Shown here piece after piece: positions 3,769 to 40,822 of a DNA stretch of 64,000 nucleotides. This stretch comes from Gemmiger sp. An194 (GTDB lineage Bacteria > Bacillota > Clostridia > Oscillospirales > Ruminococcaceae): positions 1 through 64,000 of the forward strand of contig NZ_NFKA01000002.1 in assembly GCF_002160145.1 (NCBI RefSeq), in the 5' to 3' direction. The notes below the pieces were generated by a model. The model was given only the letters and a program-made list of their open reading frames with translations. It searched no databases and was not told where the DNA came from. Every line of letters starts with the position of its first letter. The stretch's first letter is position 1. The translations under genes were made by a program, and so were the position numbers.

Positions 3769-4815
3769 ATGGCAAACAGTTATTTCACCAACAAAACCCT
3801 TTTGATCACCGGCGGCACCGGCAGCTTCGGCAACACGGTGCTCAAGCACTTCCTGGCCAGCGACATCGGCGAGATCCGCATCTTCTCCCGCGATGAGAAG
3901 AAGCAGGACGACATGCGCCACGAGATCCAGCAGAAGCACCCCGAGCTGGCGGGCAAGCTGCGCTTTTACATCGGCGACGTGCGCGAGATCGACAGCGTGC
4001 GCAGCGCGGTGCGGGGCGTGGACTACATCTTCCATGCCGCGGCCCTGAAGCAGGTGCCCAGCTGCGAGTTCTTCCCCATGGAGGCCGTGCGCACCAACGT
4101 GATCGGTACCGACAACGTGCTCACCGCCGCCATCGACGCGGGCGTGAAAAAGGTGGTCTGCCTGTCCACCGACAAGGCCGCCTACCCCATCAACGCCATG
4201 GGCATCTCCAAGGCCATGATGGAAAAGGTGATCGGCGCCAAGGCGCGCACCGTGAAGGCGGAGGACACCACCATCTGCTGCACCCGTTACGGCAACGTGA
4301 TGTGCAGCCGGGGCAGCGTGATTCCCCTGTTCATCGACCAGATCAAGGCCGGCAAGCCCATCACCATCACCGATCCGGACATGACCCGTTTCCTGATGAA
4401 CCTGGACGAGGCGGTGGACCTGGTGCAGTTTGCCTTCGAGCATGCAAACCCGGGCGACCTGTTCGTGCAGAAGAGCGACGCCTCCACCATCGGCGATCTG
4501 GCCAAGGCGGTACAGAAGCTGTTCGGCGACACCGGCACCCAGATCATCGGCACCCGCCACGGCGAGAAGCTGTACGAGACCCTGATGACCAAGGAGGAGC
4601 GCATCCGCAGCGAGGACATGGGCGGCTACTACCGCGTGTCCGCCGACGGCCGCGACCTGAACTACGACAAGTTCGTGGTGAAGGGCCAGGTGCACACCGA
4701 GGCCGACGAGGCTTACACCAGCCACAACACCCGCCTGCTGAACGTGGACGAGACCGTGGAGAAGATCCTCACCACCGACTACGTGCGCGAGGCCCTGGAG
4801 AACTGGAAGAAATAA
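3769..4815 (+). CDS. capE: CapE-like UDP-GlcNAc 4,6-dehydratase/5-epimerase
   Basis: A 348-residue extended short-chain dehydrogenase that begins UDP-N-acetyl-L-fucosamine synthesis by converting UDP-GlcNAc to the 6-deoxy-4-keto sugar with C5 epimerisation. The nucleotide-binding loop TGGTGSFGN lies at about residues 13-21. The family signature STDKAAYPINAMGISK carries the Asp-Lys catalytic pair, with MxxxK where classical SDRs have YxxxK. It is first of four adjacent plus-strand genes in the order CapE, CapF, CapG, transferase, with a 21-base gap to the next. That context separates it from the related PseB and FlaA1 dehydratases. Confidence 0.9.
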   Translation: MANSYFTNKTLLITGGTGSFGNTVLKHFLASDIGEIRIFSRDEKKQDDMRHEIQQKHPELAGKLRFYIGDVREIDSVRSAVRGVDYIFHAAALKQVPSCEFFPMEAVRTNVIGTDNVLTAAIDAGVKKVVCLSTDKAAYPINAMGISKAMMEKVIGAKARTVKAEDTTICCTRYGNVMCSRGSVIPLFIDQIKAGKPITITDPDMTRFLMNLDEAVDLVQFAFEHANPGDLFVQKSDASTIGDLAKAVQKLFGDTGTQIIGTRHGEKLYETLMTKEERIRSEDMGGYYRVSADGRDLNYDKFVVKGQVHTEADEAYTSHNTRLLNVDETVEKILTTDYVREALENWKK

Positions 4816-4836
4816 ACGGAAAAGGAAGCCATTGCA

Positions 4837-5961
4837 ATGGATCTGAATACCCCTATCCTCATCACCGGCGCGGGCGGCTTCATCGGCAAAAATCTGGTGG
4901 CCACCCTGAAAACCGCCGGTTATACCGACCTGATGCTCTTTGAGCGGGACGATACCCCCGAGACCCTGGCGGAGTATGCCGCCAGGGCGGCCTTTGTGTA
5001 TCATCTGGCGGGCATCAACCGCCCCAAGGACCCCAGCGAGTTCTACGCGGGCAACGCGGGCCTGACCGAGACCCTGCTCAGCCTGCTGGACAAGGCGGGC
5101 AACAAGGCCCCGGTGCTGGTGACCTCCAGCATCCAGGCCGCGCTGGACAACGACTACGGCAAGAGCAAGGCCCAGGCCGAGCAGGCCATCTTTGCCCACG
5201 GCCAGGCCACCGGCGCGCCGGTGTATGTGTTCCGGCTGCCGGGCGTATTCGGCAAGTGGTGCCGCCCCAACTACAACAGTGTTGTGGCCACCTTCTGCCA
5301 CAACTCCGCCAATGGCCTGCCCCTCTCGGTGCGGGACCCGGAATACCGGCTGCCGCTGGTTTACATCGACGACGTGGTGGCCAGCTTTGTGGCCGCACTG
5401 GACGGCAATTGCACCCGCGAGGTCGACTACTGCGTGGTTCCGGTGGTGCACGAGACCACTCTGGGCCATCTGGCCGAGACCATCGAGGGCTTTGCCAAAA
5501 ACCGCGAGACCCTGGATGTGCCGGACCAGACCCCTGGCAGCCTGGAGCAGAAGCTCTACTCCACCTGGCTGTCCTACCTGCCTGCCGACCGGTTCTCCTA
5601 CCCGCTGAACATGCACTGCGACAACCGGGGCAGCTTCACGGAATTTCTGCACACTCCGGCCCACGGTCAGGTGAGCATCAATATTTCCAAGCCCGGCATC
5701 GTGAAGGGCAACCACTGGCACCACTCCAAGAACGAGAAGTTCCTGGTGGTGAAGGGCACCGGCGTGATCCGCTTCCGTGCGCTGGACAGCACCGAGGTCA
5801 TTGAATACCACGTTTCCGGCGACAAGCTGGAGGTGGTGGACATTCCCACCGGCTACACCCACAACATCGAGAATGTGGGCCAGGACGATATGGTCACCGT
5901 AATGTGGGCCAACGAGGTCTTCGACCCGGACCACCCGGACACCTTCTTCCTGCCCGTCTGA
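4837..5961 (+). CDS. capF: CapF-like bifunctional reductase/cupin epimerase (UDP-L-FucNAc pathway)
   Basis: A 374-residue two-domain enzyme. Residues 1 to about 245 are an NAD(P)-dependent SDR with ITGAGGFIGKN at the N-terminus. Residues about 250-374 are a metal-binding cupin with GNHWHHSKNEKFLVV. In characterised CapF/WbjC/FnlB proteins the cupin performs C3 epimerisation and the SDR reduces the 4-keto group, giving UDP-N-acetyl-6-deoxy-L-talosamine. Both domains look complete and in frame. It follows capE directly and precedes capG by 25 bases. Confidence 0.92.
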   Translation: MDLNTPILITGAGGFIGKNLVATLKTAGYTDLMLFERDDTPETLAEYAARAAFVYHLAGINRPKDPSEFYAGNAGLTETLLSLLDKAGNKAPVLVTSSIQAALDNDYGKSKAQAEQAIFAHGQATGAPVYVFRLPGVFGKWCRPNYNSVVATFCHNSANGLPLSVRDPEYRLPLVYIDDVVASFVAALDGNCTREVDYCVVPVVHETTLGHLAETIEGFAKNRETLDVPDQTPGSLEQKLYSTWLSYLPADRFSYPLNMHCDNRGSFTEFLHTPAHGQVSINISKPGIVKGNHWHHSKNEKFLVVKGTGVIRFRALDSTEVIEYHVSGDKLEVVDIPTGYTHNIENVGQDDMVTVMWANEVFDPDHPDTFFLPV

Positions 5962-5986
5962 TTCTTCATAAAGGAGCGCGCTTTTT

Positions 5987-7126
5987 ATGAGCAAACTGAA
6001 ACTGATGACCATCGTGGGCACCCGGCCGGAGATCATCCGCCTTGCCGCCGTGATCAAAAAATGCGACAAATACTTTGACCAGATTCTGGTGCACACCGGC
6101 CAGAACTACGACTACACCCTGAACGGCATCTTCTTTGAGGACCTGGGCCTGCGGGCGCCGGATCACTACCTGAACGCGGTGGGCGAGGACCTGGGCGAGA
6201 CCATCGGCAACATCATCGCCAAGAGCTACAAGCTGATGGTGGAATTAAAGCCCGATGCTCTGCTGATTCTGGGCGACACCAACAGCTGTCTGTCCGCCAT
6301 TTCCGCCAAGCGGCTGCACATTCCCATCTTCCACATGGAGGCGGGCAACCGGTGCTTTGACGAGTGCCTGCCCGAGGAGACCAACCGCCGCATCGTGGAC
6401 CACATCGCGGATGTGAACCTGTGCTACTCCGAGCACGCCCGCCGCTACCTGAATGCCGAGGGCACCGCCAAGGAGCGTACCTATGTGACCGGCAGCCCCA
6501 TGGCCGAGGTCCTGCGGGCAAACCTTGCCCAGATCGAGGCCTCCGATGTGCTGGAACGTCTGGGTCTGGAGCCCAAAAAGTACATGCTGCTCAGCGCCCA
6601 CCGGGAGGAGAACATCGACACCGAGAAAAACTTTGTGGCCCTGTTCTCGTCCATCAACGCGCTGGCGGAAAAATACAACATGCCCATTCTCTACTCCTGC
6701 CATCCCCGCAGCCGCAAGCGGCTGGAGGTCATGAACTTCCAGCTGGACGAGCGGGTGCGCCTGCACGAGCCTCTGGGCTTCCACGACTACAACCACCTGC
6801 AGATGAACGCCTATTGCGTGGTAAGCGACTCCGGCACCCTGCCCGAGGAGTCCAGCTTCTTCACCAGCATCGGCAAGCCCTTCCCGGCGGTGTGCATCCG
6901 CACCTCCACCGAGCGCCCCGAGGCGCTGGACAAGGGCTGCTTCATTCTGGCGGGCATCACCGCCGGCGGCGTGGAGCAGGCGGTGGAGACCGCCGTGGCC
7001 ATGAACGACAACGGCGACATCGGCATTCCCGTGCCCAACTATGTGGAGGATGTGTCCACCAAGGTGGTCAAGATCATCCAGAGCTACGTGGGCGTGGTCA
7101 ACAAGATGGTGTGGCGCAAATACTAA
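5987..7126 (+). CDS. capG: CapG-like UDP-sugar 2-epimerase (UDP-L-FucNAc synthase)
   Basis: A 379-residue non-hydrolysing epimerase of the WecB fold that finishes UDP-L-FucNAc synthesis by inverting C2 of UDP-6-deoxy-L-TalNAc. Family landmarks are VGTRPEIIRLAAV at the N-terminus, GDTNSCL, HMEAGNRCFDECLPEETNR and the nucleotide-binding SDSGTLPEESSF. AAAGGAGCG precedes the ATG. The motif spelling EAGNRCFDE and the operon position fit CapG/WbjD/FnlC better than WecB, the UDP-GlcNAc to UDP-ManNAc enzyme, though WecB cannot be excluded by sequence alone. Confidence 0.9.
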   Translation: MSKLKLMTIVGTRPEIIRLAAVIKKCDKYFDQILVHTGQNYDYTLNGIFFEDLGLRAPDHYLNAVGEDLGETIGNIIAKSYKLMVELKPDALLILGDTNSCLSAISAKRLHIPIFHMEAGNRCFDECLPEETNRRIVDHIADVNLCYSEHARRYLNAEGTAKERTYVTGSPMAEVLRANLAQIEASDVLERLGLEPKKYMLLSAHREENIDTEKNFVALFSSINALAEKYNMPILYSCHPRSRKRLEVMNFQLDERVRLHEPLGFHDYNHLQMNAYCVVSDSGTLPEESSFFTSIGKPFPAVCIRTSTERPEALDKGCFILAGITAGGVEQAVETAVAMNDNGDIGIPVPNYVEDVSTKVVKIIQSYVGVVNKMVWRKY

Positions 7127-11411: not shown

Positions 11412-12887
11412 ATGGATTTTAACACATTGGTCTTTTTGGGCTTTTTTGCGGGAGTTGCGGTGCTCACCTACTGTGTCCCCCGCCCGGCAAAGCCCTACCT
11501 CTGGCTGCTGGCCAGCTATGCCTTCTATCTGTATAAACCGGAAAACGCCCGACTGGTGTTTATCCTCATCAGCGTAACCGTGGTGACCTGGGTGTGCGCC
11601 CTGGCCATGGACAGTGTTCCCCAACAGGCCACGCGGCGGCTGTTTCTGGTGGTCTCGCTGGGTGTTTGCTGCGGGTTTCTGTTCTTTTTCAAGTACTTCA
11701 ACTTCTTCGGTGAGCTGCTGGGCGGCATCACCGGCCTGTTCGGCGGCGCGGCACCTCATCTGGATCTGATCGCCCCGCTGGGTCTTTCCTACTTTACCTT
11801 CCAGAGCCTGGGGTATGTGATCGATGTGTATCTGCACCAGACCAAGGCCGAGCGCAACCCGCTGAAATACGCGCTGTTCGTGAGCTTTTTCCCCTGCATC
11901 TTCACCGGCCCCATCGAGCGCAAGGAGCACCTGATGGCTCAGTTCGAGCATCCCCGCCGGTTTGACTATGACCGGGTGGCGGGCGGTTTGTTCCGGGTGC
12001 TGTGGGGTTATGTGAAAAAGATGGTCATTGCGGACAACATCGGCGTATTTGTGCGGGCGGTCTATTCCGCACCGGACCAGCACACCGGCCCTTATCTGCT
12101 GGCGGCCAGCCTGCTGTTCAGCTACCAGATCTACATGGACTTCTCCGGCTGCTGCGATATCGCCATCGGCGCGGGCCGGATGCTGGGCTTTGATCTTCTG
12201 GAAAACTTCAACCGTCCCTTTGCCGCCAAGACCTACACCGAGCTGTGGAACCGGTGGCACATGAGCCTGACCAACTGGTTCAAGGACTACATCTTCACGC
12301 CCCTCTCCTTCTATAACCGGGGCGCGGAGGGCTTTCTGGGCAAGCTGCAGGGCTGGTTCAACATCTTTATCATCTTCCCCATCAGCGGCCTGTGGCACGG
12401 CGCCAGTCTGGGCTATGTGATCTGGGGCGTTCTGAACGGCCTGTTCATGGTGGTGGGCAAGGCCACTGCCAAAAAGCGCCGCAAGCTGGCCAAGAAAAAC
12501 CCGCTGTATCAGGTTCCTCATCTGCAGGGATTCATCCAGCGGTGCTGCGTGTACCTGCTGTTCACCGCCTGCATCGTCTTCTTTGCGGCCGATCTTTATG
12601 GCGGTCAGGCGGGCATCGTGTTCGCCGGTCTGTTCACCGGCTGGGGGCAGGCAGGCCTTGCCCAGCTGGCCAGCGGCTTTGCGGCGCTGGGTCTGGGCGG
12701 CAGTACCGTTCTCATGCTGGTGGCCAGCAGCCTGGTTGTGGAACTGATCGAAGCCCGCGGCCCGGTGGCTCAGTGGATTCGCACCCAGCGGGCCTGGGTG
12801 CGCTGGCCGCTGTATTACGGGCTCTGCCTGCTGCTGCTGTTCTTCGGCGTATTCGGCCAGTCGGCCTATATCTACCAGCAATTCTAA
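11412..12887 (+). CDS. MBOAT family O-acyltransferase (AlgI/PatA/DltB type)
   Basis: A 491-residue multi-spanning membrane protein that passes acyl, usually acetyl, groups across the membrane for polysaccharide O-acylation. Diagnostic stretches: ASYAFYLYK at the N-terminus, LGLSYFTFQSLGYVIDVY, GPIERKEHL, YMDFSGCCDIAIG, NRWHMSLTNWFKDYIF and the catalytic-His motif GLWHGASLGYVIWG. The length matches AlgI. GAGGTG precedes the ATG. The following gene encodes an SGNH-like protein, giving the usual two-component acylation arrangement for the polymer made by this cluster. Confidence 0.92.
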   Translation: MDFNTLVFLGFFAGVAVLTYCVPRPAKPYLWLLASYAFYLYKPENARLVFILISVTVVTWVCALAMDSVPQQATRRLFLVVSLGVCCGFLFFFKYFNFFGELLGGITGLFGGAAPHLDLIAPLGLSYFTFQSLGYVIDVYLHQTKAERNPLKYALFVSFFPCIFTGPIERKEHLMAQFEHPRRFDYDRVAGGLFRVLWGYVKKMVIADNIGVFVRAVYSAPDQHTGPYLLAASLLFSYQIYMDFSGCCDIAIGAGRMLGFDLLENFNRPFAAKTYTELWNRWHMSLTNWFKDYIFTPLSFYNRGAEGFLGKLQGWFNIFIIFPISGLWHGASLGYVIWGVLNGLFMVVGKATAKKRRKLAKKNPLYQVPHLQGFIQRCCVYLLFTACIVFFAADLYGGQAGIVFAGLFTGWGQAGLAQLASGFAALGLGGSTVLMLVASSLVVELIEARGPVAQWIRTQRAWVRWPLYYGLCLLLLFFGVFGQSAYIYQQF

Positions 12888-12902
12888 GGAGGTGCGGCGA
12901 TC

Positions 12903-14222
12903 TTGACCAATCAACCCAAGCGCAAAAAAAAGCGCAGCCTTGTGCGCACGCTCCTGTATCGCTTCTTCACCGGGCTGGAGATTCTGATCAAATTCTGCTT
13001 TTTCATTCCCATTCTGCTGTTCATGGTCTGGTTCAGCCATAAGGTGGACATCAGCGGCCTGTTCCAGGGCGAGTTGGCTCCCCGCGAGGTGGCCAACATG
13101 CTGCTGGCAGGTGACACCGTTTCCAATTACGACAAGATGGACGAGCGGGCGGTGCTGGAGCTGTATGTACAGAATCTGCCGGAGGAGCAGGTGCCGGAAA
13201 CCATTGCTCTTGGCTCCAGCCGGGTGCTGCAGCTGCAGCAGGAGCTGGTGAGCGGCAGCTTTTTCAACATGGGCCTGAGCGGCGCCTCCGCCATGGATGT
13301 GATGAACTGCTTCTATCTGCTGGACAAGGAGGGCAAGCTGCCCAAAAACCTGATCATCGAGGTTGACCCCTGGCTGTTCAACGGCGAGAATCCCACTCTG
13401 AACCAGCAGGCCGACACGGAACTCTTTCCGGAATTTTTGCAGAACGCTCTTGGCATTGAAAGCGATTATCAGGAGCCGGACAAGCTGGAGCTGTGGAAGG
13501 CACTGATCGACCCGGCCTACTTCCAGGGCAACGTGAAATATGCTCTGAAGCAGCGAGCCACCGGCGAGACCACCACCGAGGACGGCGAAAGCATTCCCTT
13601 CCAGCCGGTGAGCGGTGATCTGGACCAGCTGGAATACAACGCCAAAGCCCCGGACGGCACTGTGGTCTATCAGGCGGATTTTCGCAACTGGAATTACGAC
13701 CAGATAATGGCCGAGGTACTGGATCAGGCGGGCACCCTGGACGGACTGCACGGCTTTTCCCAGATGGACCCCTACTGGACCGATCTGTTCGAGCGTTTTG
13801 TAAGCTATGTGCAAAGCAAGAATGTGAACGTGGTCTTGCTGCTCACGCCCTATCACCCCTTCATCATCAAATATGTCCACGACAATCCCCAGGGCTTTGA
13901 GGGCTTCTTTGATGTGGAACCCTGGCTGCGCAGCTTTGCCCAGGAGCACAACATTCCCCTGTACGGCAGCTACCATGCCAGCCGCATCGGCGTGCCGGAA
14001 AGCCTGTTCTACGACGGCCTGCACTGCAAGCCGGAGGCCCTCAAGCTGTACTTCCCCGGCATCGAGGCCGCGCTGCAGGGCCTGCAGACCTCCTATGAGG
14101 CTCAGTATCTGGAAACCTACGGGGCGGACAATGCCGATCTGGTGACCAACGCCCTGGTGGGCACCACCGCCGACTGCCTGGTGGTGGACGAGGAATGGTT
14201 TGCCAAGGCCAGCACCTCCTGA
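12903..14222 (+). CDS. Membrane-anchored SGNH-hydrolase-like protein (AlgJ/DltD-like acylation partner)
   Basis: A 439-residue protein with a basic N-terminus, one membrane anchor (about residues 22-42) and an extracytoplasmic domain. Candidate catalytic elements are ALGSSRVLQ (block I Ser), NMGLSGAS, and YDGLHCKPEA near the C-terminus, which supplies the DxxH dyad. This arrangement is seen in AlgX/AlgJ, PatB and DltD partners of MBOAT proteins. It starts at TTG after AAGGAGGTG, 15 bases from the MBOAT gene. The acceptor polymer is probably the FucNAc-containing glycan of this locus, an inference from position. Confidence 0.75.
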   Translation: MTNQPKRKKKRSLVRTLLYRFFTGLEILIKFCFFIPILLFMVWFSHKVDISGLFQGELAPREVANMLLAGDTVSNYDKMDERAVLELYVQNLPEEQVPETIALGSSRVLQLQQELVSGSFFNMGLSGASAMDVMNCFYLLDKEGKLPKNLIIEVDPWLFNGENPTLNQQADTELFPEFLQNALGIESDYQEPDKLELWKALIDPAYFQGNVKYALKQRATGETTTEDGESIPFQPVSGDLDQLEYNAKAPDGTVVYQADFRNWNYDQIMAEVLDQAGTLDGLHGFSQMDPYWTDLFERFVSYVQSKNVNVVLLLTPYHPFIIKYVHDNPQGFEGFFDVEPWLRSFAQEHNIPLYGSYHASRIGVPESLFYDGLHCKPEALKLYFPGIEAALQGLQTSYEAQYLETYGADNADLVTNALVGTTADCLVVDEEWFAKASTS

Positions 14223-18331: not shown

Positions 18332-18799
18332 TCAGGCCTGATAATCATACTGCAGCATGGGCCCGGTCCAGTGCTCCAGCACCTTGCACATATCCGCCGC
18401 CGTGGCCTTGGCACCGGGCAGGTCGTGCTCCAGGTAGTTGCCGCACTCCTTGCGCTCGCTGCCGGGGATCTTGCCCTCAAAGTCGGCGATGAAGGCAAAA
18501 CACTCCCGCACCAGAGCAATGGCCTGCTCCCCGCTCATGGCATCCCGGGTGAGGAAGTAAAAGCCGGTGCGGCAGCCCATGGGGCCCACGTAGATGATCT
18601 GGTCGCTGTAGGCGGAGTTGCGCACATAGGTGGCGAACAGATGCTCGAAGGTGTGCATGGCGGGACTGGGCAGATACACGCCCCCGTTGGGCTTGACCAT
18701 GCGGATGTCGTAGGTGATCACGTCGCCGTCCACCCGGGAAACATACATGCCCTTTTCCAGCTTGTCGTGGTCGACGGTAAAACTTGCGATGGTTTTCAT
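18332..18799 (-). CDS. luxS: S-ribosylhomocysteine lyase LuxS
   Basis: A 155-residue metalloenzyme that cleaves S-ribosylhomocysteine to homocysteine and DPD, the precursor of autoinducer-2, in the activated methyl cycle. The metal site is HTFEH (His49, His53) plus Cys119; Glu52 and Cys76 in GPMGCRTGFY are the catalytic residues. The length is standard. It is the distal gene of a minus-strand run with a phosphodiesterase and an O-antigen-polymerase-like protein. No pfs (SAH nucleosidase) gene is nearby. Confidence 0.97.
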   Translation of the reverse strand: MKTIASFTVDHDKLEKGMYVSRVDGDVITYDIRMVKPNGGVYLPSPAMHTFEHLFATYVRNSAYSDQIIYVGPMGCRTGFYFLTRDAMSGEQAIALVRECFAFIADFEGKIPGSERKECGNYLEHDLPGAKATAADMCKVLEHWTGPMLQYDYQA

Positions 18800-18813
18800 G
18801 GGAATCCTCCTGC

Positions 18814-19356
18814 TCAGTAGGCGATGCTGCCCAGCACCTGACCGTCAATGGTCTTGGTGGTGAACAGGCCGTTTTCATAGATCATATAACTGTGGGAGCC
18901 GTCCTTGGGAATGGATACGCTGCCCGGGTTCAGAATCAGGGTATCGCCCTGCCATTCGGCGTGCTTCACATGCACATGGCCGAACACAAAGGCACTGTGG
19001 GCAGGCATGGGAGGCAGGTTCTCCGGGTTGAACTTGTGGCCGTGGGTGGCAAACAGGCACTTGCCCTCCTCCAGCCAGAGGGTGGTATAATCGGCCATCA
19101 CCGGGAATTCCAGCACCATCTGGTCCACCTCGGCCTCGCAGTTGCCCCGCACCGCGATGATCTTCTCCTTCAGGCCGTTCAGCATGGGGATCACCTTTTT
19201 GGGTGCATAGCCCTCGGGCAGGTCGTTGCGAGGGCCGTGATACAGCAGATCCCCCAGCAGCAGAATGCGGTCCGGCTGCTCGGCCTGAATGCGCTCCATC
19301 AGTTTTTCACAATAATAGGCCGAACCGTGCAGGTCGGACGCGATCAGAAGCTTCAT
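18814..19356 (-). CDS. YfcE/MJ0936-type metallophosphoesterase
   Basis: A 180-residue calcineurin-like phosphodiesterase with all metal-site motifs: SDLHG (Asp8, His10), GDLLYHGPRN, GNCE, THGH and GHVHV. Family members hydrolyse small phosphodiesters in vitro; the physiological substrate is unknown. It sits between luxS (14-base gap) and a polymerase-like membrane protein, with which it overlaps by four bases (ATGA), so the three are probably one transcript. Confidence 0.92.
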   Translation of the reverse strand: MKLLIASDLHGSAYYCEKLMERIQAEQPDRILLLGDLLYHGPRNDLPEGYAPKKVIPMLNGLKEKIIAVRGNCEAEVDQMVLEFPVMADYTTLWLEEGKCLFATHGHKFNPENLPPMPAHSAFVFGHVHVKHAEWQGDTLILNPGSVSIPKDGSHSYMIYENGLFTTKTIDGQVLGSIAY

Positions 19357-20690
19357 ACGTTTACGACTCCTTTGAAATGGATTTTCGTTTTTTCCTCTGT
19401 CTTTTCAAAACCGGGCTGACGCTGCGGCCAGAAAAGCACCCCGCACAGCAGCCAGACGGTCACATTCATGCAGGCCCACAGCACATGGGTCTCCATGGTG
19501 GCGTGGCAGAGCATCACCAGACAGCACACCGCCTCGGTGGCCAGGCCTTCCTTGAGCAGCCGCCACATCAACAGGGCAAAGCCCAGCCAGATCAGGGCGC
19601 TGGCCACCGGACCGGCCACGATCCAGTAATACAGGTAGGCATTGTCCACCAGCATATCCGCCCCGGGCATCTGGCCCGCAATGGCAAACGGCATGGTGGT
19701 AAGGCCCTGCCAGCCCAGTGAGATGCGGGTGCTGAAAAGACTGTCCAGTCGGGCCAGCAGCGGGTTCTCCGGATTCCAGCCAAGGGCAAGGCCCATACTG
19801 GCGGCAAAGGCCAGCAGCGGCGCAGCCGTGAGCAGCAGCCGTACCGGCAGCGGACGCAGCACGCCGGGCCAAATGTGCACCACCAGCAAAGCGGCGATGA
19901 GCAGCACCAGGCAGATGGTGGCAGCCCGGCTGTCCGGCCCGAAGTTGCAGAATACCGTCAGCGCTGCCAGCAGGGCAAAGTCGAACCATTTCAGTCGCTT
20001 TCCCCCCCGCAGGCACACATACATCAGCGCAAGAGCCAGCAGGCAGGCCCCGAAGAAATTGTACCAGCCATAGCCGAAGCTGTTCCGGTAGCGGCCGGTG
20101 CCCAGCTCCTGCACGGTATCGATCACACCTGCCACCGAGCTGAGCGCCACAACACCCACGCTGAGCGCTCCCACCGGCAGCACCAGCTTCAGCGCCCGGC
20201 GCAGCGGCACATCCTTGGCTGCCAGCGCAAACAGCAGCGCCATCATCATCCACTTATTATGGTTGTTCATAAACACCCAGCGGATCACAAACAGCACACA
20301 GAAGGCAGCCGCCAGCTGGCGGCCGTCGTACCGGGTGCAAAGCAAAATCTTGACCAGCAGGCAAAGCACCACCAGATGGTCCAGCGCCATGGTACCGTAT
20401 TCAAACAGCCAGGGCAGACGGTCCCGATACAGGCTGTTCACAAAAAAGATCTCGAACTGGTAGACCGCCGCGGCCACGATAAACAGCCAGGGCGCCAGCG
20501 CCTGCCGGACATCGCCCAGCCAGCCGCCGAACAGCTGCCGCTGCACCGTCAGCTGTCTGCCCAAATCAAACCAGGGGGCTTCCATGGGGCGGCGCAGCGT
20601 CTGCCAGGCATACCACATGCAGCCCAGCGCAAGCCCCAGCACGGCAAGATTCGCATAGCCGTAAAGGCAGTCGATGATAAAAGAATGCAA
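19353..20690 (-). CDS. Polytopic membrane protein, O-antigen ligase/polymerase-like
   Basis: A 445-residue protein with about eleven hydrophobic segments and a large loop around residues 290-345 (LLARLDSLFSTRISLGWQGL). This layout, and the Arg-bearing loop FSTRISLGW, resembles Wzy/WaaL-type polymerases (O-antigen ligase superfamily), which share little sequence. It starts at TTG after AAAGGAG. Being coupled to a phosphodiesterase and luxS is unexpected for a polymerase. An alternative is a general hypothetical membrane protein. Confidence 0.6.
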   Translation of the reverse strand: MHSFIIDCLYGYANLAVLGLALGCMWYAWQTLRRPMEAPWFDLGRQLTVQRQLFGGWLGDVRQALAPWLFIVAAAVYQFEIFFVNSLYRDRLPWLFEYGTMALDHLVVLCLLVKILLCTRYDGRQLAAAFCVLFVIRWVFMNNHNKWMMMALLFALAAKDVPLRRALKLVLPVGALSVGVVALSSVAGVIDTVQELGTGRYRNSFGYGWYNFFGACLLALALMYVCLRGGKRLKWFDFALLAALTVFCNFGPDSRAATICLVLLIAALLVVHIWPGVLRPLPVRLLLTAAPLLAFAASMGLALGWNPENPLLARLDSLFSTRISLGWQGLTTMPFAIAGQMPGADMLVDNAYLYYWIVAGPVASALIWLGFALLMWRLLKEGLATEAVCCLVMLCHATMETHVLWACMNVTVWLLCGVLFWPQRQPGFEKTEEKTKIHFKGVVNV

Positions 20691-20705
20691 GGGTCCTTCT
20701 CCTTT

Positions 20706-20744
20706 AAAAAACAGGGTGGCAGAGCCCGCGCCGCAGGCTCTGCC
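20706..20744 (-). terminator. Probable terminator after the PglD/NahK fusion gene
   Basis: A perfect 9-bp stem GGCAGAGCC/GGCTCTGCC (20718-20726 with 20736-20744), followed on the minus strand by a TTTTTT run five bases later. The T-run adjoins the AAAGGAG ribosome site of the next gene, so termination may be partial. Confidence 0.6.
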
Positions 20745-20765
20745 CTCTGCCGCGTCCTGCGCGGC

Positions 20766-22391
20766 TCAGCTGTATTTCTTCACAATGTCCTGCATGGCCT
20801 CAAACTGCTGCTCCATATCCTGCACCAGCTTGAACTGGGTGCGGGCGCGGATCAGGTTATGGGTGGGATACTGGGTCTTGAAATAGGTATCCCCCTGCAG
20901 GTAGTCGGTCAAAAAGCGCATACCGCACTCCAGCGTCAGCAGCTTTGCACCCCAGGCCAGATTCGCCTTCTCATTTTCGGTGAGCACATCGCCTGCGGTT
21001 TCCAGATAGCCCTTGGTGTAGGCCTCGAACAGATCGATGTCGAAGTTCACCTTGGCAAGATCCGGCTCGTCCTCAGCGGCATGGGTGGCACCGAAGCGGA
21101 TGGAGTCACCGAAGTCATTGAGAGCAAGGCCGGGCATGATGGTATCCAGATCAATGATGCAGATGCCCTCGCCGGTCTTCTCGTCGAACAGGATGTTGTT
21201 CAGCTTGGTGTCGTTGTGGGTGACCCGCAGAGGCAGGGTACCCGCCCGCAGCTGGCTCATGAGCACGCTGCAGTCCGCCGCATGGTCCAGCACAAACTGG
21301 ATCTCATCCTTGCAGGTACGGGCACGGTTTTTCACATCCCGGCGCAGCGCCTGTTTAAAATTCTTCAGCCGGTCCTCGGTGTCGTGGAACTTGGGAATGG
21401 TCTCGTACAGGGTATCCGCCGGGTAGCCGTCCAGCTGCTTGAGGAAGCGGCCAAAGCTGCGGGCGGACTGATAGAACTGCTCCGGGCACTCCACACTCTG
21501 GTAGCAGACCGAATCCGGAATAAAGTTATAGCACCGCCAGGGCAGGCCATCGGTATCCTCGAAATAGTTTTCCCCGGCTTTGGTCTTGATATAGCTCAGG
21601 GTCTCCCGGTCCGGGTCACCGCCGGCGGCTCGGATGCTCTGGCGCAGGTACTCGGTCACGCCGAAGATGTTCTCCATCACCTCGCGAGGCTTTTTGAACA
21701 CATTGATGTTGATGCGCTGCAGCACGTAGCTCAGCTCTTCCTCACCGTTCTCGCCGGGCATGAACACCGCGTAGGTCTCGTTGATGTGGCCCGCGCCGAA
21801 GGGCTGCACATAGCTGCACTGGTTGCCGAAGCCGAAGGCGTACAGCGCATCCTCCAGCATGCGGCTGTCCACACCGTCGATCTTGCGGCGCTTGGCAAAG
21901 ATCACCTCGCCCGCCTCCACCTTGCGGTGGGCCTCCACATGGCAGTTGGCCTTGACCACGCTGCCCAGACCGATGTGGGCGCCCTCGTCCACCACCGTAT
22001 CGTGGTCAATGATGGCGCCGCTGTTCACCAGGCAGCCCAGACCCAGCTTGCTGTGGGTGTTGATCACGGCCCGCTGCATCACAAAGCTGCCCGCGCCGAT
22101 CTCGGCACTGGGGCTGACCACCGCGCTGGGATGGATGATGGTGGGCACCACAAAATCTGCCTCCAGCAGCTTTTTTACCCAGTGCAGCCGCATCTTGTTG
22201 TTGCCGAAGGCGGCCACCGCACAGGGGTATTCCTTGCGGAAGTCCTTGTAGTCCACCAGCTTGCCGATGACGCAGGCCTCCTTGCAGGCATCGTCCAGCA
22301 TGGCAATTTTATCAAACTGGCGGGTCGCCATGGCGGATTCGTAGACCATATGGCCAAAACCGCCTGCGCCCAGAATCAATAAGTTCGGCAT
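20766..22391 (-). CDS. Fusion of PglD-like sugar acyltransferase and NahK-like sugar 1-kinase
   Basis: A 541-residue two-domain protein. Residues 1 to about 185 match the PglD/NeuD family: a Rossmann-like start (LILGAGGFGHMVYESA) followed by left-handed beta-helix hexapeptides, with IIDHDTVVDEGAHIGLG holding the expected catalytic His. Residues about 205-541 match the APH-fold kinase group of N-acetylhexosamine 1-kinase: PFGAGHINETYAV, YVLQRININVFK, VMENIFGVTEYL, THNDTKLNN (His392, Asp394) and IDLDT (Asp414, Asp416). Both halves keep their key residues and the frame is continuous, so a bifunctional enzyme that acylates and/or 1-phosphorylates an amino sugar is plausible. The substrate is unknown. 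Transcribed from its own promoter. Confidence 0.82.
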   Translation of the reverse strand: MPNLLILGAGGFGHMVYESAMATRQFDKIAMLDDACKEACVIGKLVDYKDFRKEYPCAVAAFGNNKMRLHWVKKLLEADFVVPTIIHPSAVVSPSAEIGAGSFVMQRAVINTHSKLGLGCLVNSGAIIDHDTVVDEGAHIGLGSVVKANCHVEAHRKVEAGEVIFAKRRKIDGVDSRMLEDALYAFGFGNQCSYVQPFGAGHINETYAVFMPGENGEEELSYVLQRININVFKKPREVMENIFGVTEYLRQSIRAAGGDPDRETLSYIKTKAGENYFEDTDGLPWRCYNFIPDSVCYQSVECPEQFYQSARSFGRFLKQLDGYPADTLYETIPKFHDTEDRLKNFKQALRRDVKNRARTCKDEIQFVLDHAADCSVLMSQLRAGTLPLRVTHNDTKLNNILFDEKTGEGICIIDLDTIMPGLALNDFGDSIRFGATHAAEDEPDLAKVNFDIDLFEAYTKGYLETAGDVLTENEKANLAWGAKLLTLECGMRFLTDYLQGDTYFKTQYPTHNLIRARTQFKLVQDMEQQFEAMQDIVKKYS

Positions 22392-22473: not shown

Positions 22474-22502
22474 ATTATAGTAAAAGAAACACCCCAATAC
22501 AA
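22474..22502 (-). promoter_or_regulatory. Promoter of the PglD/NahK fusion gene
   Basis: On the minus strand: TTGTAT (22497-22502), a 17-nt spacer and TATAAT (22474-22479). The -35 box falls in the apex of the terminator hairpin of the preceding XRE gene. Confidence 0.65.
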
Positions 22503-22519
22503 GGTATCGGGGTGTTTTT
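22487..22519. terminator. Terminator of the XRE membrane regulator gene
   Basis: A stem of about 14 bp with one mismatch (22487-22500 with 22504-22517) and a 3-nt loop, flanked by T-rich sequence on the minus strand. It overlaps the promoter of the downstream fusion gene. Confidence 0.8.
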
Positions 22520-37027: not shown

Positions 37028-37780
37028 TTACATCTTATCGTCTTCCCGGGTGGTCTGCTTGTAAGCCTCGCAGACCTCCTCGGTGGGGCCGTTCATCTTG
37101 ATGCGGCCGTGCTCCAGCCAGGCCACCTTGTTGCACATGCGCTCGATCTGCTCGATGGAGTGGCTCACCAGAATCACAGTGGTGCCGCCGCTCATCAGCT
37201 TCTGCATGCGCTGTTCGCACTTTTCCTGGAACAGGAAGTCGCCCACCGCCAGGATCTCGTCGGCAATGAGTACATCCGGCTTGGTGATGGTGGCCACCGC
37301 AAAGGCAAGGCGGGCCACCATGCCGCTGGAGTAGTTCTTCAGCGGCACATCCAGGAAGTCCCGCAGCTCGCTGAACTCCACGATCTCCTCAAAATGAGCG
37401 TCGATGTATTTGGGGCTGAAGCCCAGAACAGTACCGTTCAGGTAGATGTTCTCCCGGGCGGTCAGGTCCATGTCAAAGCCCGCGCCCAGCTCGATCAGGG
37501 GCGCCACGGTGCCCCGCACCTTGCAGCTGCCGCTGCTGGGCTTGTAAACGCCGGAAATGACCTTGAGCAGGGTGGATTTGCCGCTGCCGTTCAGGCCGAT
37601 CAGGCCGTAAAAGTCGCCGGGCTGCACCTGCAGGCTCACATCCTTCAGGGCGAAGAACTCATCAAACCGCAGTTTCCCCTTGACCAGCTGCAAAAAATAT
37701 TCCTTCAGGCTCTCGCTTTTTTCCTTGGCCAGGTTGAAGCGCATGGAAACGTTGTTGACTTCAATAATGGGCTGCTGCAA
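37028..37780 (-). CDS. Polysaccharide/teichoic acid ABC exporter ATP-binding protein (Wzt/TagH-like)
   Basis: A 250-residue ATPase of the polysaccharide exporter group. Walker A is GLNGSGKST, the family stretch GTVAPLIELGAGFDMDLTARENIYLNG is present, the signature is KNYSSGMVARLAFA, Walker B is DVLIADEILAVGD, and the switch His is in VILVSHSIEQIE. There is no C-terminal sugar-binding extension, so substrate recognition is TagH/KpsT-like rather than E. coli O9-type. TTG start after AAGGAGG. It pairs with the adjacent permease to flip an undecaprenyl-linked glycan. Confidence 0.94.
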   Translation of the reverse strand: MQQPIIEVNNVSMRFNLAKEKSESLKEYFLQLVKGKLRFDEFFALKDVSLQVQPGDFYGLIGLNGSGKSTLLKVISGVYKPSSGSCKVRGTVAPLIELGAGFDMDLTARENIYLNGTVLGFSPKYIDAHFEEIVEFSELRDFLDVPLKNYSSGMVARLAFAVATITKPDVLIADEILAVGDFLFQEKCEQRMQKLMSGGTTVILVSHSIEQIERMCNKVAWLEHGRIKMNGPTEEVCEAYKQTTREDDKM

Positions 37781-37794
37781 TTTCCCGCGCCTCC

Positions 37795-38589
37795 TTACAT
37801 ATACAGAACAAATTTATCCTGGGTCTTCTTGAACACCAGAACGCCCAGCGCCAGCATGACCAGCGCCCACACGCCGCAGATCAGAATCTGCGCGCCGCTC
37901 AGCAGCTGGCCGTACATCACGGTATCGCGGAAGGCGGTGATGTACTGATACAAGGGGTTCAGGGCGATCAGACCCTCCAGCAGGGCATTGCCGAACTGCT
38001 CAGGGGTATAGAAGATGGCAGAGAACCACATGAGGATGGTGGTGAATACCTCCCACAGATGGATCACATCCCGGAAGAACACCGCCATAGCGGCCAGAAT
38101 CATACCGATGCCCAGGCTGAACACCGCCAGCGTGAGCAGCGGATACAGCCCCAGCAGGATGGTGGGGTGCAGCGGCGCCCGGGTAATGAGCATTACGATG
38201 ATCAGGGCGATAAAGCTGAACAGGCAGTTCACCAGACCGAAGCAGATTTTCTGCAGCGGGAAGATGTATTTCGGGATATACACCTTGCGCAGCAGCATGG
38301 CATTGTTCATCACGCTGGACATGGCCATGGTGGTGGACTCACGGAAGAAGTTGAACAGCAGCTGACCGATCACCAGATATACGGCGAAATTGTCGATGCC
38401 TTCGCCCCGCATGCCTGCCATGAGGGTGTTGAAGATCACGAACATCACCGCGCACATCATCAGCGGGTTGAGCACGCTCCAGGCCACACCCAGCACGCTG
38501 CGGCGGTATTTCAGCTTGAAATCACGGCTGATCAGATTGTACAGCAGGTAGCGGTAGCGCAGAAAATCCTGCACATAAAGTTTCAGCAT
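37795..38589 (-). CDS. Polysaccharide ABC exporter permease (Wzm/TagG-like)
   Basis: A 264-residue ABC-2 type permease with six hydrophobic segments. The N-terminus LYVQDFLRYRYLLYNLISRDFKLKYRRSVLG is the typical amphipathic gate-helix region of Wzm/TagG proteins, followed by GVAWSVLNPLMMCAVMFVIF. It lies 15 bases upstream of the ATPase gene and forms the membrane half of the exporter. Confidence 0.94.
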   Translation of the reverse strand: MLKLYVQDFLRYRYLLYNLISRDFKLKYRRSVLGVAWSVLNPLMMCAVMFVIFNTLMAGMRGEGIDNFAVYLVIGQLLFNFFRESTTMAMSSVMNNAMLLRKVYIPKYIFPLQKICFGLVNCLFSFIALIIVMLITRAPLHPTILLGLYPLLTLAVFSLGIGMILAAMAVFFRDVIHLWEVFTTILMWFSAIFYTPEQFGNALLEGLIALNPLYQYITAFRDTVMYGQLLSGAQILICGVWALVMLALGVLVFKKTQDKFVLYM

Positions 38590-38601
38590 ACCGGTGCTCC
38601 C

Positions 38602-39168
38602 TTACCACTTTTTGAAATAATCAAAGTTCTGGGCGGCAAAGGGCTCATGCTTTTTGTCCTTCTCGCTCAGCAGATACTCACAGCCGCAGTCCGGCCACTC
38701 CACATTCACGGTGGGATCGTTGTAGGGGATGCCGCCCTCGGCGGTGGGATCGTAGTAATCGGTGCACTTGTAGCAGAACTCGGCCTCGTCGCTCAGCACC
38801 AGGAAACCGTGGGCAAAGCCCTGGGGCACGTAGAACTGCTTTTTGTTCTCGGCGCTCAGGGTCACGCCGGCCCATTTGCCGAAGGTGGCGCTGTTCGGGC
38901 GGCAGTCCACCGCCACATCGAACACCTCGCCCTTAGTCACCCGAACCAGCTTGCCCTGGGTGTGCTCCTTCTGGAAGTGCAGACCACGCAGCACGCCCCG
39001 GCTGGACTTGGACTGGTTGTCCTGTACGAATTCATCGGTGATACCGGCAGCGGCGAACTCTTCCTTCTGGAAGGTCTCCATAAAATAACCGCGGGCGTCG
39101 CCGAATACAGCAGGCTCGATCACAACCACACCGGGCAGTTCAGTTTGAACAAACGTAAATTTTCCCAT
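38602..39168 (-). CDS. rfbC: dTDP-4-dehydrorhamnose 3,5-epimerase (RfbC/RmlC) family
   Basis: A 188-residue cupin epimerase that inverts C3 and C5 of dTDP-4-keto-6-deoxyglucose. Family motifs are DARGYFMETF, SKSSRGVLRGLHFQKEH (active-site His), FDVAVDCR, VPQGFAHGFLVL (catalytic region) and YKCTDYYDP. Normal length. The ATG at 39168 starts the domain; the longer ORF is spurious. Its neighbours FdtA and FdtB use the same kind of dTDP-keto-sugar, but RfbA, RfbB and RfbD are not in the window. Confidence 0.95.
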   Translation of the reverse strand: MGKFTFVQTELPGVVVIEPAVFGDARGYFMETFQKEEFAAAGITDEFVQDNQSKSSRGVLRGLHFQKEHTQGKLVRVTKGEVFDVAVDCRPNSATFGKWAGVTLSAENKKQFYVPQGFAHGFLVLSDEAEFCYKCTDYYDPTAEGGIPYNDPTVNVEWPDCGCEYLLSEKDKKHEPFAAQNFDYFKKW

Positions 39169-39208
39169 TTTCACCTGTCTCCTTGTTCTGGTTTTGGCGT
39201 TCAGAGGC

Positions 39209-39640
39209 TCAGATGCTTTGCCGGGCGATTTCCGCCCGGAAGGCCTCGTAGTCGCGAATATATTCTTCTCCGTCGTAATGCTCGCTGCAAAGCACCAGCA
39301 GCACACTGTCCGGCGAAAAATCGTACATATCCTTCCACACCATGCGGGGGATGTAAATGCCGGTGTTGGGCTGATCCAGGTGATAGACCTGCTCGCGGCC
39401 CAGGCCGTCGTCTACCCGCACCTTGCTCTTGCCCGCCACGTTCACCAGCACGAACTCGGTGTTCCGGTTTGCGTGCTGGCCCCGCATCACGGTGGCATCA
39501 CTGCCGTAGATGTAGAACACTCGCTGGATGGCAAAGGGCACATCCCGCTGGCCCTCCACCACGATCAGGCTGCCCCGCTCGTCGCCCAGATCGCCGAAGC
39601 GCAGCAGCTTCACCTTATCGTAATTTGTATTCTGTTTCAT
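39209..39640 (-). CDS. fdtA: dTDP-4-keto-6-deoxyhexose 3,4-ketoisomerase (FdtA/QdtA type)
   Basis: A 143-residue cupin of the WxcM-like group that moves the keto group of dTDP-4-keto-6-deoxyglucose from C4 to C3. FGDLGDERGSLIVVE, RVFYIYG and RGQHANRNTEFVLVNV (with the active-site His) match FdtA, TylX and QdtA. GIYIPRMVWKDMYDF follows. It cannot be told from sequence whether the galacto (FdtA) or gluco (QdtA) product forms. It lies directly downstream of the aminotransferase, its usual partner. Confidence 0.9.
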   Translation of the reverse strand: MKQNTNYDKVKLLRFGDLGDERGSLIVVEGQRDVPFAIQRVFYIYGSDATVMRGQHANRNTEFVLVNVAGKSKVRVDDGLGREQVYHLDQPNTGIYIPRMVWKDMYDFSPDSVLLVLCSEHYDGEEYIRDYEAFRAEIARQSI

Positions 39641-39653
39641 CGGCTGCTTTTCC

Positions 39654-40754
39654 TCACGGCTCCCACTGGTTGATGGCGTCGATCACATAGCGCTGCTCTT
39701 CTTCGGTCATGCCGTTGTACATAGGCAGACTGAGCACCTCGCCGGCGTAGCGCTCGGCGATGGGGAAATCCCCCACGCCGAAGCCCAGATAGGCATACGC
39801 CTCGGACAGGTGCGGCGGAATGGGATAATGGATGATGGTGCCGATGCCCTTTTCCTTCAGATAGGCGGCCAGCGCGTCGCGCCCGCCGGGCACATGCACC
39901 ACGTACTGATGCCAGGTGCAGTCCGCACCGGGGCGGATCTTGGGCAGCTGCACATGGGGATTCTTCAATTTTCTGTTGTAGGTCTCGGCGATGGTGCAGC
40001 GCTCGGCGTTGAAGTCGTCCAGATGAGTCAGCTTCACCCGCAAAAGGCCCGCCTGCAGCTCGTCCAGCCGGGAGTTGGTGCCCACCACCTGGTTGTGGTA
40101 GCGCTTTTCGCTGCCGTAGTTGCGGTAGACCCGGAATTTTTGTGCCAGCTCGTCGCTGTTCGTCACGATGCAACCCGCGTCGCCAAAGGCGCCGCAGCCC
40201 TTGGTGGGATAGAACGAGAAGCAGCCCACATCGCCGAAGGTGCCCACGGTCTGGCCCTGCCAGTGGTTGCCGTGGCTCTGGGCGCAGTCCTCCACCACCT
40301 TCAGATCATGGGCCTTTGCAATGGCCATGATACGGGTCATGTCGCAGGACTGGCCATACAGATGCACCGCCAGAATGGCTTTGGTTTTGGGGGTGATCGC
40401 AGCCTCGATCTTTTCCGCGTCGATGTTGTCGTATTCGTCCGGCTCCACGAACACCGGGGTGGCCCCGTTCATGGAGATGCCCATCACGCAGGCAATGTAG
40501 GCATTGGAGCAGACGATCACCTCATCGCCCGCGCCCACACCCAGCAGCCGGAAGCTGATCCACAGCGCGTCCAGCCCGCTGGCCAGACCCACGCAGTGCT
40601 TTGCGCCGATGTATTCGGCCCATTCCTTTTCAAAGGCCTCCACCTCTTTGCCAAGCACATACCAGCCGCTGCGCAGCACCTGCAGGGCCTTTTCCTCATA
40701 CTCCGCCGCGTGCAGGCTGTACTGGCGGCCCAGATCGTTGGGCATGATGTTCAT
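39654..40754 (-). CDS. fdtB: DegT/DnrJ/EryC1 PLP aminotransferase (FdtB/QdtB type)
   Basis: A 366-residue PLP-dependent sugar aminotransferase that should aminate C3 of the dTDP-3-keto-6-deoxyhexose from the ketoisomerase, giving Fuc3N or Qui3N. Motifs: GSGWYVLGKEVEAFEKEW-like N-terminal region, VKVVEDCAQSHG-like Asp region, and FSFYPTKGCGAFGDAGCIVT containing the PLP lysine. GTNSRLDELQAGLLRVKL follows. The ATG at 40754 begins the domain. It is the first gene of a minus-strand operon. Confidence 0.93.
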   Translation of the reverse strand: MNIMPNDLGRQYSLHAAEYEEKALQVLRSGWYVLGKEVEAFEKEWAEYIGAKHCVGLASGLDALWISFRLLGVGAGDEVIVCSNAYIACVMGISMNGATPVFVEPDEYDNIDAEKIEAAITPKTKAILAVHLYGQSCDMTRIMAIAKAHDLKVVEDCAQSHGNHWQGQTVGTFGDVGCFSFYPTKGCGAFGDAGCIVTNSDELAQKFRVYRNYGSEKRYHNQVVGTNSRLDELQAGLLRVKLTHLDDFNAERCTIAETYNRKLKNPHVQLPKIRPGADCTWHQYVVHVPGGRDALAAYLKEKGIGTIIHYPIPPHLSEAYAYLGFGVGDFPIAERYAGEVLSLPMYNGMTEEEQRYVIDAINQWEP

Positions 40755-40822
40755 CAACGCAATTCCCTCCCGCTGTGTGTAACCGTCCCGCCGGTGCGGC
40801 AGGACAAACATATTCATGGTAT

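Follow-up and report, generated by a model that had tools for sequence, protein, structure and literature searches.

A natural fusion of a short PglD-type acyltransferase and a NahK-like N-acetylhexosamine 1-kinase in Gemmiger sp. An194 and related bacteria

Does a single reading frame that joins a sugar acyltransferase to a sugar kinase encode a genuine two-domain protein, and what would such a protein do? The question is raised by a gene on the minus strand (22391–20766) of the window, by which we mean the whole stretch of 64,000 nucleotides of Gemmiger sp. An194 analysed here. The frame is uninterrupted from ATG to stop (541 codons), and profile and PDB searches indicate a short PglD-type acyltransferase followed by an N-acetylhexosamine 1-kinase. 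An earlier note, made from the letters alone, had called this a natural fusion and knew of no description of the combination, and both statements hold: the full-length fusion was found in 24 of the 297 genomes of the window genome's family (its own included; 61–100% identity, no stops), which span 10 of the 126 genera, and in at least six further genomes from a genome-contig scan (one Onthovicinus and five Lachnospiraceae by record title), while no account of it was found in the open-access literature, as judged from search listings. An assembly or annotation join of two genes is refuted and carries a negligible probability, as the frame is open across the junction in all of these genomes. The best 80 of the 598 candidates of the contig scan comprise 6 fusions and 74 stand-alone kinases, and this set may miss records close to the window's genome. 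One of the six, from Lachnoclostridium sp. An169, is in a record that is not marked as a MAG. Of the five genomes searched in the window's own genus, four have the fusion; the one without it measures 1.7 Mb and is 88% complete. At E ≤ 1e-150, samples of 394 genomes of the order and 398 genomes of the phylum contained 2 and 1 carriers, respectively, the window's own genome being counted in both.

The two domain identities proposed earlier, a PglD-type left-handed beta-helix (LbH) and a NahK-like kinase, were recovered by Pfam, PDB search and model alignment. Pfam matched PglD_N at residues 3–75 (E 1.8e-12) and APH at residues 196–449 (E 2.8e-16), and Hexapep at residues 119–147 with 24.8 bits, below its cut-off of 27; the PglD_N domain and the LbH that characterise the TIGR03570 family are both present in the N half. 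In the PDB sequence search, NahK (4ocu) was by far the best match (E 8.6e-97 over residues 180–537), and the N-terminal part matched acyltransferases, with the acetyltransferase domain of Neisseria PglB (4m98, E 4.5e-22) ahead of PerB, PglD and VioB. An AlphaFold model built with 17 fusion sequences (mean pLDDT 89, pTM 0.67; the mutual placement of the halves is not reliable from this monomer model) combines an N domain of nucleotide-binding type with 14 two-residue beta-helix strands, the last of which ends at residue 164, and with a kinase from about residue 177. Using VIA-align, model residues 1–168 align to the acetyltransferase domain of Neisseria PglB with Z 26.4, and model residues 174–541 align to NahK 4ocu with Z 46.0 (353 residues aligned, 47% identity), the predicted APH-type fold being alignable across the whole kinase domain. 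The domain limits differ slightly from the earlier estimates of about 185 and 205, as the helix of the model ends at 164 and the kinase starts at about 174–177. We divide the protein into residues 1–165 (21897–22391, minus strand), containing the PglD_N nucleotide-binding fold (about 1–80) and a short LbH of about 4 2/3 turns (about 85–164), a linker of residues 166–176 (21864–21896, minus), and the NahK-type kinase with APH fold, residues 177–541 (20769–21863, minus).

All key residues named in the earlier note are present. The acyl half has D129-H130-D131 (21999–22007, minus), in which H130 matches the catalytic His of PglD-type enzymes (His125 in PglD, His142 in Pcryo_0637), and A138-H139-I140-G141. 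The kinase half has H392-N393-D394 (HND; 21210–21218, minus), the kinase catalytic loop, and I413-D414-L415-D416-T417 (21141–21155, minus), of which DLDT (D414–T417) is presumably the metal-binding motif. On the plus strand, an open frame of 835 aa (19875–22382) covers the fusion in antisense together with part of the following gene; it probably results from high GC and codon use and is not a gene.

Phylogeny and selection were used to look at the history of the two halves. In a quickly built kinase-half tree, which contains 30 fusions and 31 of the 81 stand-alone rows, all 30 fusions fall on one side of a single branch (one change, SH-aLRT 81), next to a long stand-alone branch (L027); the Lachnospiraceae fusions are nested inside (support 82) and look like they were gained by transfer. 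The N-domain tree (24 fusions and 18 stand-alones, with many open forks) is less clean and requires two changes for the fusions, so that a single fusion origin fits the data with the kinase tree as the one that argues for it. No short-PglD relative was found in the flanking DNA of the 74 stand-alone NahKs (L058–L131; tblastn, E ≤ 1e-4), and no NahK was found at E ≤ 1e-20 in the regions around stand-alone PglDs (L132–L148), except in L145, where it is the fusion itself. Both halves are under purifying selection, with dN/dS of 0.022–0.036 (N half) and 0.032–0.049 (kinase) against three congeners, and 0.149 and 0.177, respectively, against a more distant genus. The linker (20 codons; dN/dS 0, 0, 0.30 and 0.38) is as a whole not clearly constrained; its residues R168, I171 and G173 are unchanged in 24 of 24 fused N-domains and are not kept in four aligned stand-alone short forms.

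The acyl half is a member of a short PglD subfamily, in which the helix is predicted to have about 4 2/3 turns and the C-terminal loop that closes over CoA would be lacking. In Pcryo_0637 (PMC8040287), the beta-helix has six turns and its oxyanion hole is made by a Gly amide; the C-terminal stretch, which contains a cis-proline, folds back when CoA is bound. An Asp pair holds base and ribose in Pcryo_0637 as well as in PglD. The modelled N half has neither the six turns (it falls short by about 1 1/3) nor the CoA-closing loop. H130, D129, D131, H139, D33 and D34 are kept in all 24 fused N-domains aligned, and the catalytic His and both flanking Asp are unchanged also in the four stand-alone short forms. 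In contrast to Pcryo_0637, residue 148, which a gap-free count from the catalytic His assigns to the position of its oxyanion-hole Gly, is Ala in 22 and Ser in 2 of the 24, and a third ligand residue, a Ser in the reference, is Gly in the fusion. The unchanged D33-D34, together with the role of this Asp pair in Pcryo_0637 and PglD, favours a nucleotide-sugar substrate, whereas the shortened helix and missing CoA loop leave acetyl transfer not assured: if the model is right, bound acetyl-CoA would lack support at its outer end, or else the N half has some other function.

Stand-alone relatives stop where the fused half stops. We fetched 17 regions for stand-alone PglDs (L132–L148), and the gene caller recovered the relative in 14 (none in L138, L142 and L146), including 13 short forms (called lengths 147–184 aa, with L133 and L135 the shortest because a late called start removes about the first 25 residues) and one full-length PglD (L147, 225 aa). 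The short PglD of L140 (167 aa) aligns without gaps to fusion residues 1–164. Against NCBIfam TIGR03570 (NeuD/PglB/VioB; cut-off 160.8 bits), fusion residues 3–165 score 124.3 bits (profile positions 1–169 of 202) and five stand-alone short forms score 99.7–138.4 bits, all below the cut-off, as compared to 186.5 bits for L147, which is from the same bacterial family. Judged by these scores, the curated profile would miss the short PglD subfamily.

The fusion is a second NahK paralogue, since a separate NahK is present in most genomes that have it, frequently in the vicinity of GH112. Of the 24 family genomes with the fusion, 20 also encode a stand-alone NahK, and 14 of these 20 have a GH112 match within 10 kb on the same contig (three of the 14 are GH112 fragments, as read from the coordinates). 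Congener G025 has the fusion, the stand-alone NahK and GH112; G000, G261 and G137 (98 to >99% complete) have the fusion with no match for stand-alone NahK or GH112, and so does G052, but this genome is 66% complete. GH112 matches occur in 24 of the 30 fusion genomes, in 4 of 10 genomes with stand-alone NahK only (absent from the other 6), and in 0 of 14 control genomes. A genetic link between fusion and GH112 is not seen in the three near-complete genomes, although this feature says little because stand-alone NahKs may lack GH112 too; a stand-alone NahK is not always the one serving lacto-N-biose/galacto-N-biose (LNB/GNB) breakdown, and GH112 is an imperfect divider. HND and DLDT are each at least 97% conserved in the 30 fusions and in the 81 stand-alone NahK rows. 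With equal motifs, the two paralogues probably share the same chemistry, and their use may differ.

We then considered the genomic neighborhood of the fusion in the window. The earlier note gave the gene its own promoter, which is plausible: a terminator-like hairpin (14 pairs, 22487–22517, minus), which sets the fusion apart from its upstream neighbour, is overlapped and followed by a possible promoter with an intact TATAAT, TTGTAT-17-TATAAT (22474–22502, minus; read by eye), but its -35 matches only 3 of 6 positions where the scan requires 4, and neither of the two sites that the scan listed (1.2 expected) is this one. Another terminator-like hairpin (12 pairs, 9 GC; 20718–20744, minus) lies between the fusion and the next gene. 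The hairpins may bracket the fusion as a single-gene unit, to which they lend weak support since their number in the region (6) is near shuffle level (4.0). The next gene (19353–20690, minus) encodes a polytopic membrane protein with 9 hydrophobic segments, for which neither Pfam nor the PDB sequences (E ≤ 1) nor a Foldseek search with its model (pLDDT 61.5; E ≤ 0.001) gave a match; from its context, it is perhaps a glycan polymerase or ligase. It is followed by a YfcE-type phosphodiesterase gene (18814–19356, minus), which together with LuxS occupies 18332–19356 (minus). PADLOC gave no match.

Other parts of the window contain putative sugar genes. Three genes like FnlA/CapE, WbcJ/CapF and WecB/CapG (3769–7126, plus; by NCBIfam, the WecB match is above cut-off and the FnlA and WbcJ matches are below) would form a UDP-L-FucNAc-type route; this CapEFG-like trio has no PglD and is 13.6 kb away from the fusion. 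Genes at 37028–40817 (minus) encode an ABC-2 transporter pair, RmlC, FdtA and a DegT aminotransferase (best NCBIfam match PseC, below cut-off), perhaps a dTDP-3-amino-sugar route, with no N-acetyltransferase among the five. At 11412–14222 (plus), an MBOAT gene (DltB-like, below NCBIfam cut-off) is paired with a gene that has no Pfam match and is SGNH-like by eye; glycan O-acylation is possible.

We took 27 fusion loci (the window, 20 enlarged, and 6 from the contig scan) and drew 25 of them, leaving out L045 and L057, in which the gene caller shortened the fusion to ≤500 aa. A homologue of the membrane protein follows the fusion in 7 of the 25 drawn loci (window included). The commonest neighbour is the YfcE-type phosphodiesterase, found after the fusion, directly or past the membrane gene, in 14 of the 25, and it tracks the fusion across several genera.

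Some short PglDs are encoded in clusters of CapE-CapF-CapG-like genes or in clusters with a fucosyltransferase, and one such cluster is seen again with the fusion where PglD would stand. In L132, L134 and L135, a CapE/FnlA-like dehydratase gene comes first, and the short PglD then separates the CapF-like from the CapG-like gene. L140 (from G012) has, in order, a GT10 fucosyltransferase, DUF6492, GT2, a stand-alone short PglD, and a membrane protein to which that of the window is 29% identical (E 3e-22). L040 (from G047) begins with a MatE-like flippase (below cut-off) and homologues of the GT10 and DUF6492 genes (59% and 63%), and continues with genes of GDP-fucose type (GDP-mannose dehydratase, an epimerase and one like mannose-1-phosphate guanylyltransferase), after which come the fusion and a homologue of the membrane protein. 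The cluster of L132 belongs to congener G261, and its CapG is 98% identical to the window's; PglD would have been gained or lost inside this CapEFG-like glycan cluster between G261 and the window. In L144, the short PglD follows an MBOAT and second gene (44% to the window pair at 11412–14222) and precedes an Acyl_transf_3 gene. Five genomes (G212, G142, G031, G266 and G046; L047, L048, L049, L051 and L145) have two acyl domains in tandem, the gene immediately upstream of the fusion, in the same orientation, being a stand-alone short PglD. In L052 and L053, the fusion is directly followed by a gene of the LytR-CpsA-Psr family, which ties glycopolymers to the wall. Most drawn fusion loci are not clearly within a glycan cluster, and some lie with housekeeping, transport or repair genes; many fusion loci have as neighbours only genes without an evident part in glycan synthesis, for example peptidase S66, oligopeptide permease, GH1 glycosidase or IMS-family DNA polymerase. 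Other short PglDs are found near purine- or leucine-synthesis-like genes (named by eye). PF02719 (dehydratase) and PF01041 (aminotransferase) were found in 30 of 30 fusion genomes and 14 of 14 controls, and do not discriminate.

We propose, with about an even chance of being right, that the fusion acts in the cytosol as an enzyme with two activities, presumably of one pathway, and supplies precursors for surface glycans. Its kinase half would phosphorylate free GlcNAc or GalNAc at C1 and yield the sugar-1-phosphate, which a separate uridylyltransferase would convert to UDP-HexNAc; the N half, probably trimeric, would bind a nucleotide sugar derived from the UDP-HexNAc pool and acetylate it (N- or O-), or sense it if the shortened helix cannot hold CoA. 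We judge the kinase step likely, while acetylation of a nucleotide sugar by the N half might equally be right or wrong. This reading is supported by the conservation of the full-length fusion, by purifying selection on both halves, by their predicted folds and conserved motifs, by the short PglDs in three CapE-CapF-PglD-CapG-like clusters, by the L140/L040 pair, by LytR-CpsA-Psr in L052 and L053, and by the finding that, of the four family genomes with the fusion and without a stand-alone NahK match, three lack GH112 at ≥98% completeness. It is weakened by the short helix, the missing CoA loop and the replaced oxyanion Gly and ligand Ser, by the many fusion loci outside clear glycan clusters with the CapEFG-like genes of the window at a distance, by the GH112 counts (frequent in fusion genomes, often absent with stand-alone NahK only), and by the consideration that cells with de novo synthesis of UDP-GlcNAc have no obvious need of salvage.

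Among the alternatives, the N half may no longer acetylate and may act as a trimer-forming nucleotide-sugar sensor that controls the kinase, giving feedback on HexNAc salvage; we regard this as doubtful. The shortened helix, the absent CoA loop and the Ala or Ser at the oxyanion position would suit a sensor that keeps its nucleotide-binding Asp pair, as would the three invariant linker residues, but the linker as a whole is not clearly constrained, and the catalytic His and its flanking Asp are unchanged also in the four stand-alone short forms aligned. Stand-alone short forms have no kinase to regulate, and they sit in three sugar-nucleotide clusters and, in five genomes, directly beside the fusion. 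If true, the fusion would be a feedback-controlled salvage kinase with a repurposed PglD domain that binds the end-product nucleotide sugar, a new use of the hexapeptide acyltransferase fold.

The earlier note had suggested a two-step route, in which both halves act on the same small sugar to make an acylated sugar-1-phosphate. The halves are kept in one chain in all 30 fusions of the tree, and GlmU is a precedent for an LbH domain that can acetylate a sugar-1-phosphate. This route is possible but unlikely, as D33-D34, whose counterparts hold base and ribose in relatives, do not change, some relatives of the N half cluster with UDP-sugar or glycosyltransferase genes, and NahK takes sugars that are already N-acetylated (PMC8106489).

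Of the functional readings, the least probable, and an improbable one in our view, casts the fusion as an enzyme of host-glycan (LNB/GNB) breakdown, comparable to Bifidobacterium NahK, and the N half as a passenger: the identity of the kinase half to NahK (47% over about 350 residues) and the frequent GH112 would fit, but three near-complete genomes have neither GH112 nor a stand-alone NahK, most others have a separate NahK often beside GH112, and the N half is under purifying selection.

Compared with known systems, the fusion unites two known kinds of enzyme in a new combination of domains and is not categorically new. Its kinase half resembles NahK/LnpB of Bifidobacterium longum (4ocj, 4ocu, 4wh1-3) in fold, HND and DLDT, but is fused behind an LbH domain, can be present without GH112, and mostly coexists with a separate paralogue. 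With the nucleotide-sugar N-acetyltransferases PglD, PglB-ATD, PerB, VioB and Pcryo_0637, the N half shares the PglD_N fold, the Asp pair and the catalytic His, but it has the shorter helix, no C-terminal CoA loop, a TIGR03570 score below cut-off and a fused kinase. Neisseria PglB, the closest solved match of the N half, also joins a PglD-like domain to another sugar enzyme, but the partner there is a glycosyltransferase, while here it is a kinase on the C-terminal side. GlmU likewise joins an LbH acetyltransferase to an enzyme of sugar-1-phosphate activation, in its case a uridylyltransferase, with a different partner and acyl subfamily.

The fusion would link amino-sugar salvage to surface-glycan tailoring in one chain, and would thereby serve as a Rosetta-stone clue to the role of the short PglD subfamily in these bacteria. 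It also sets a second NahK paralogue apart from the one near GH112, where annotation by homology would merge both as LNB/GNB enzymes.
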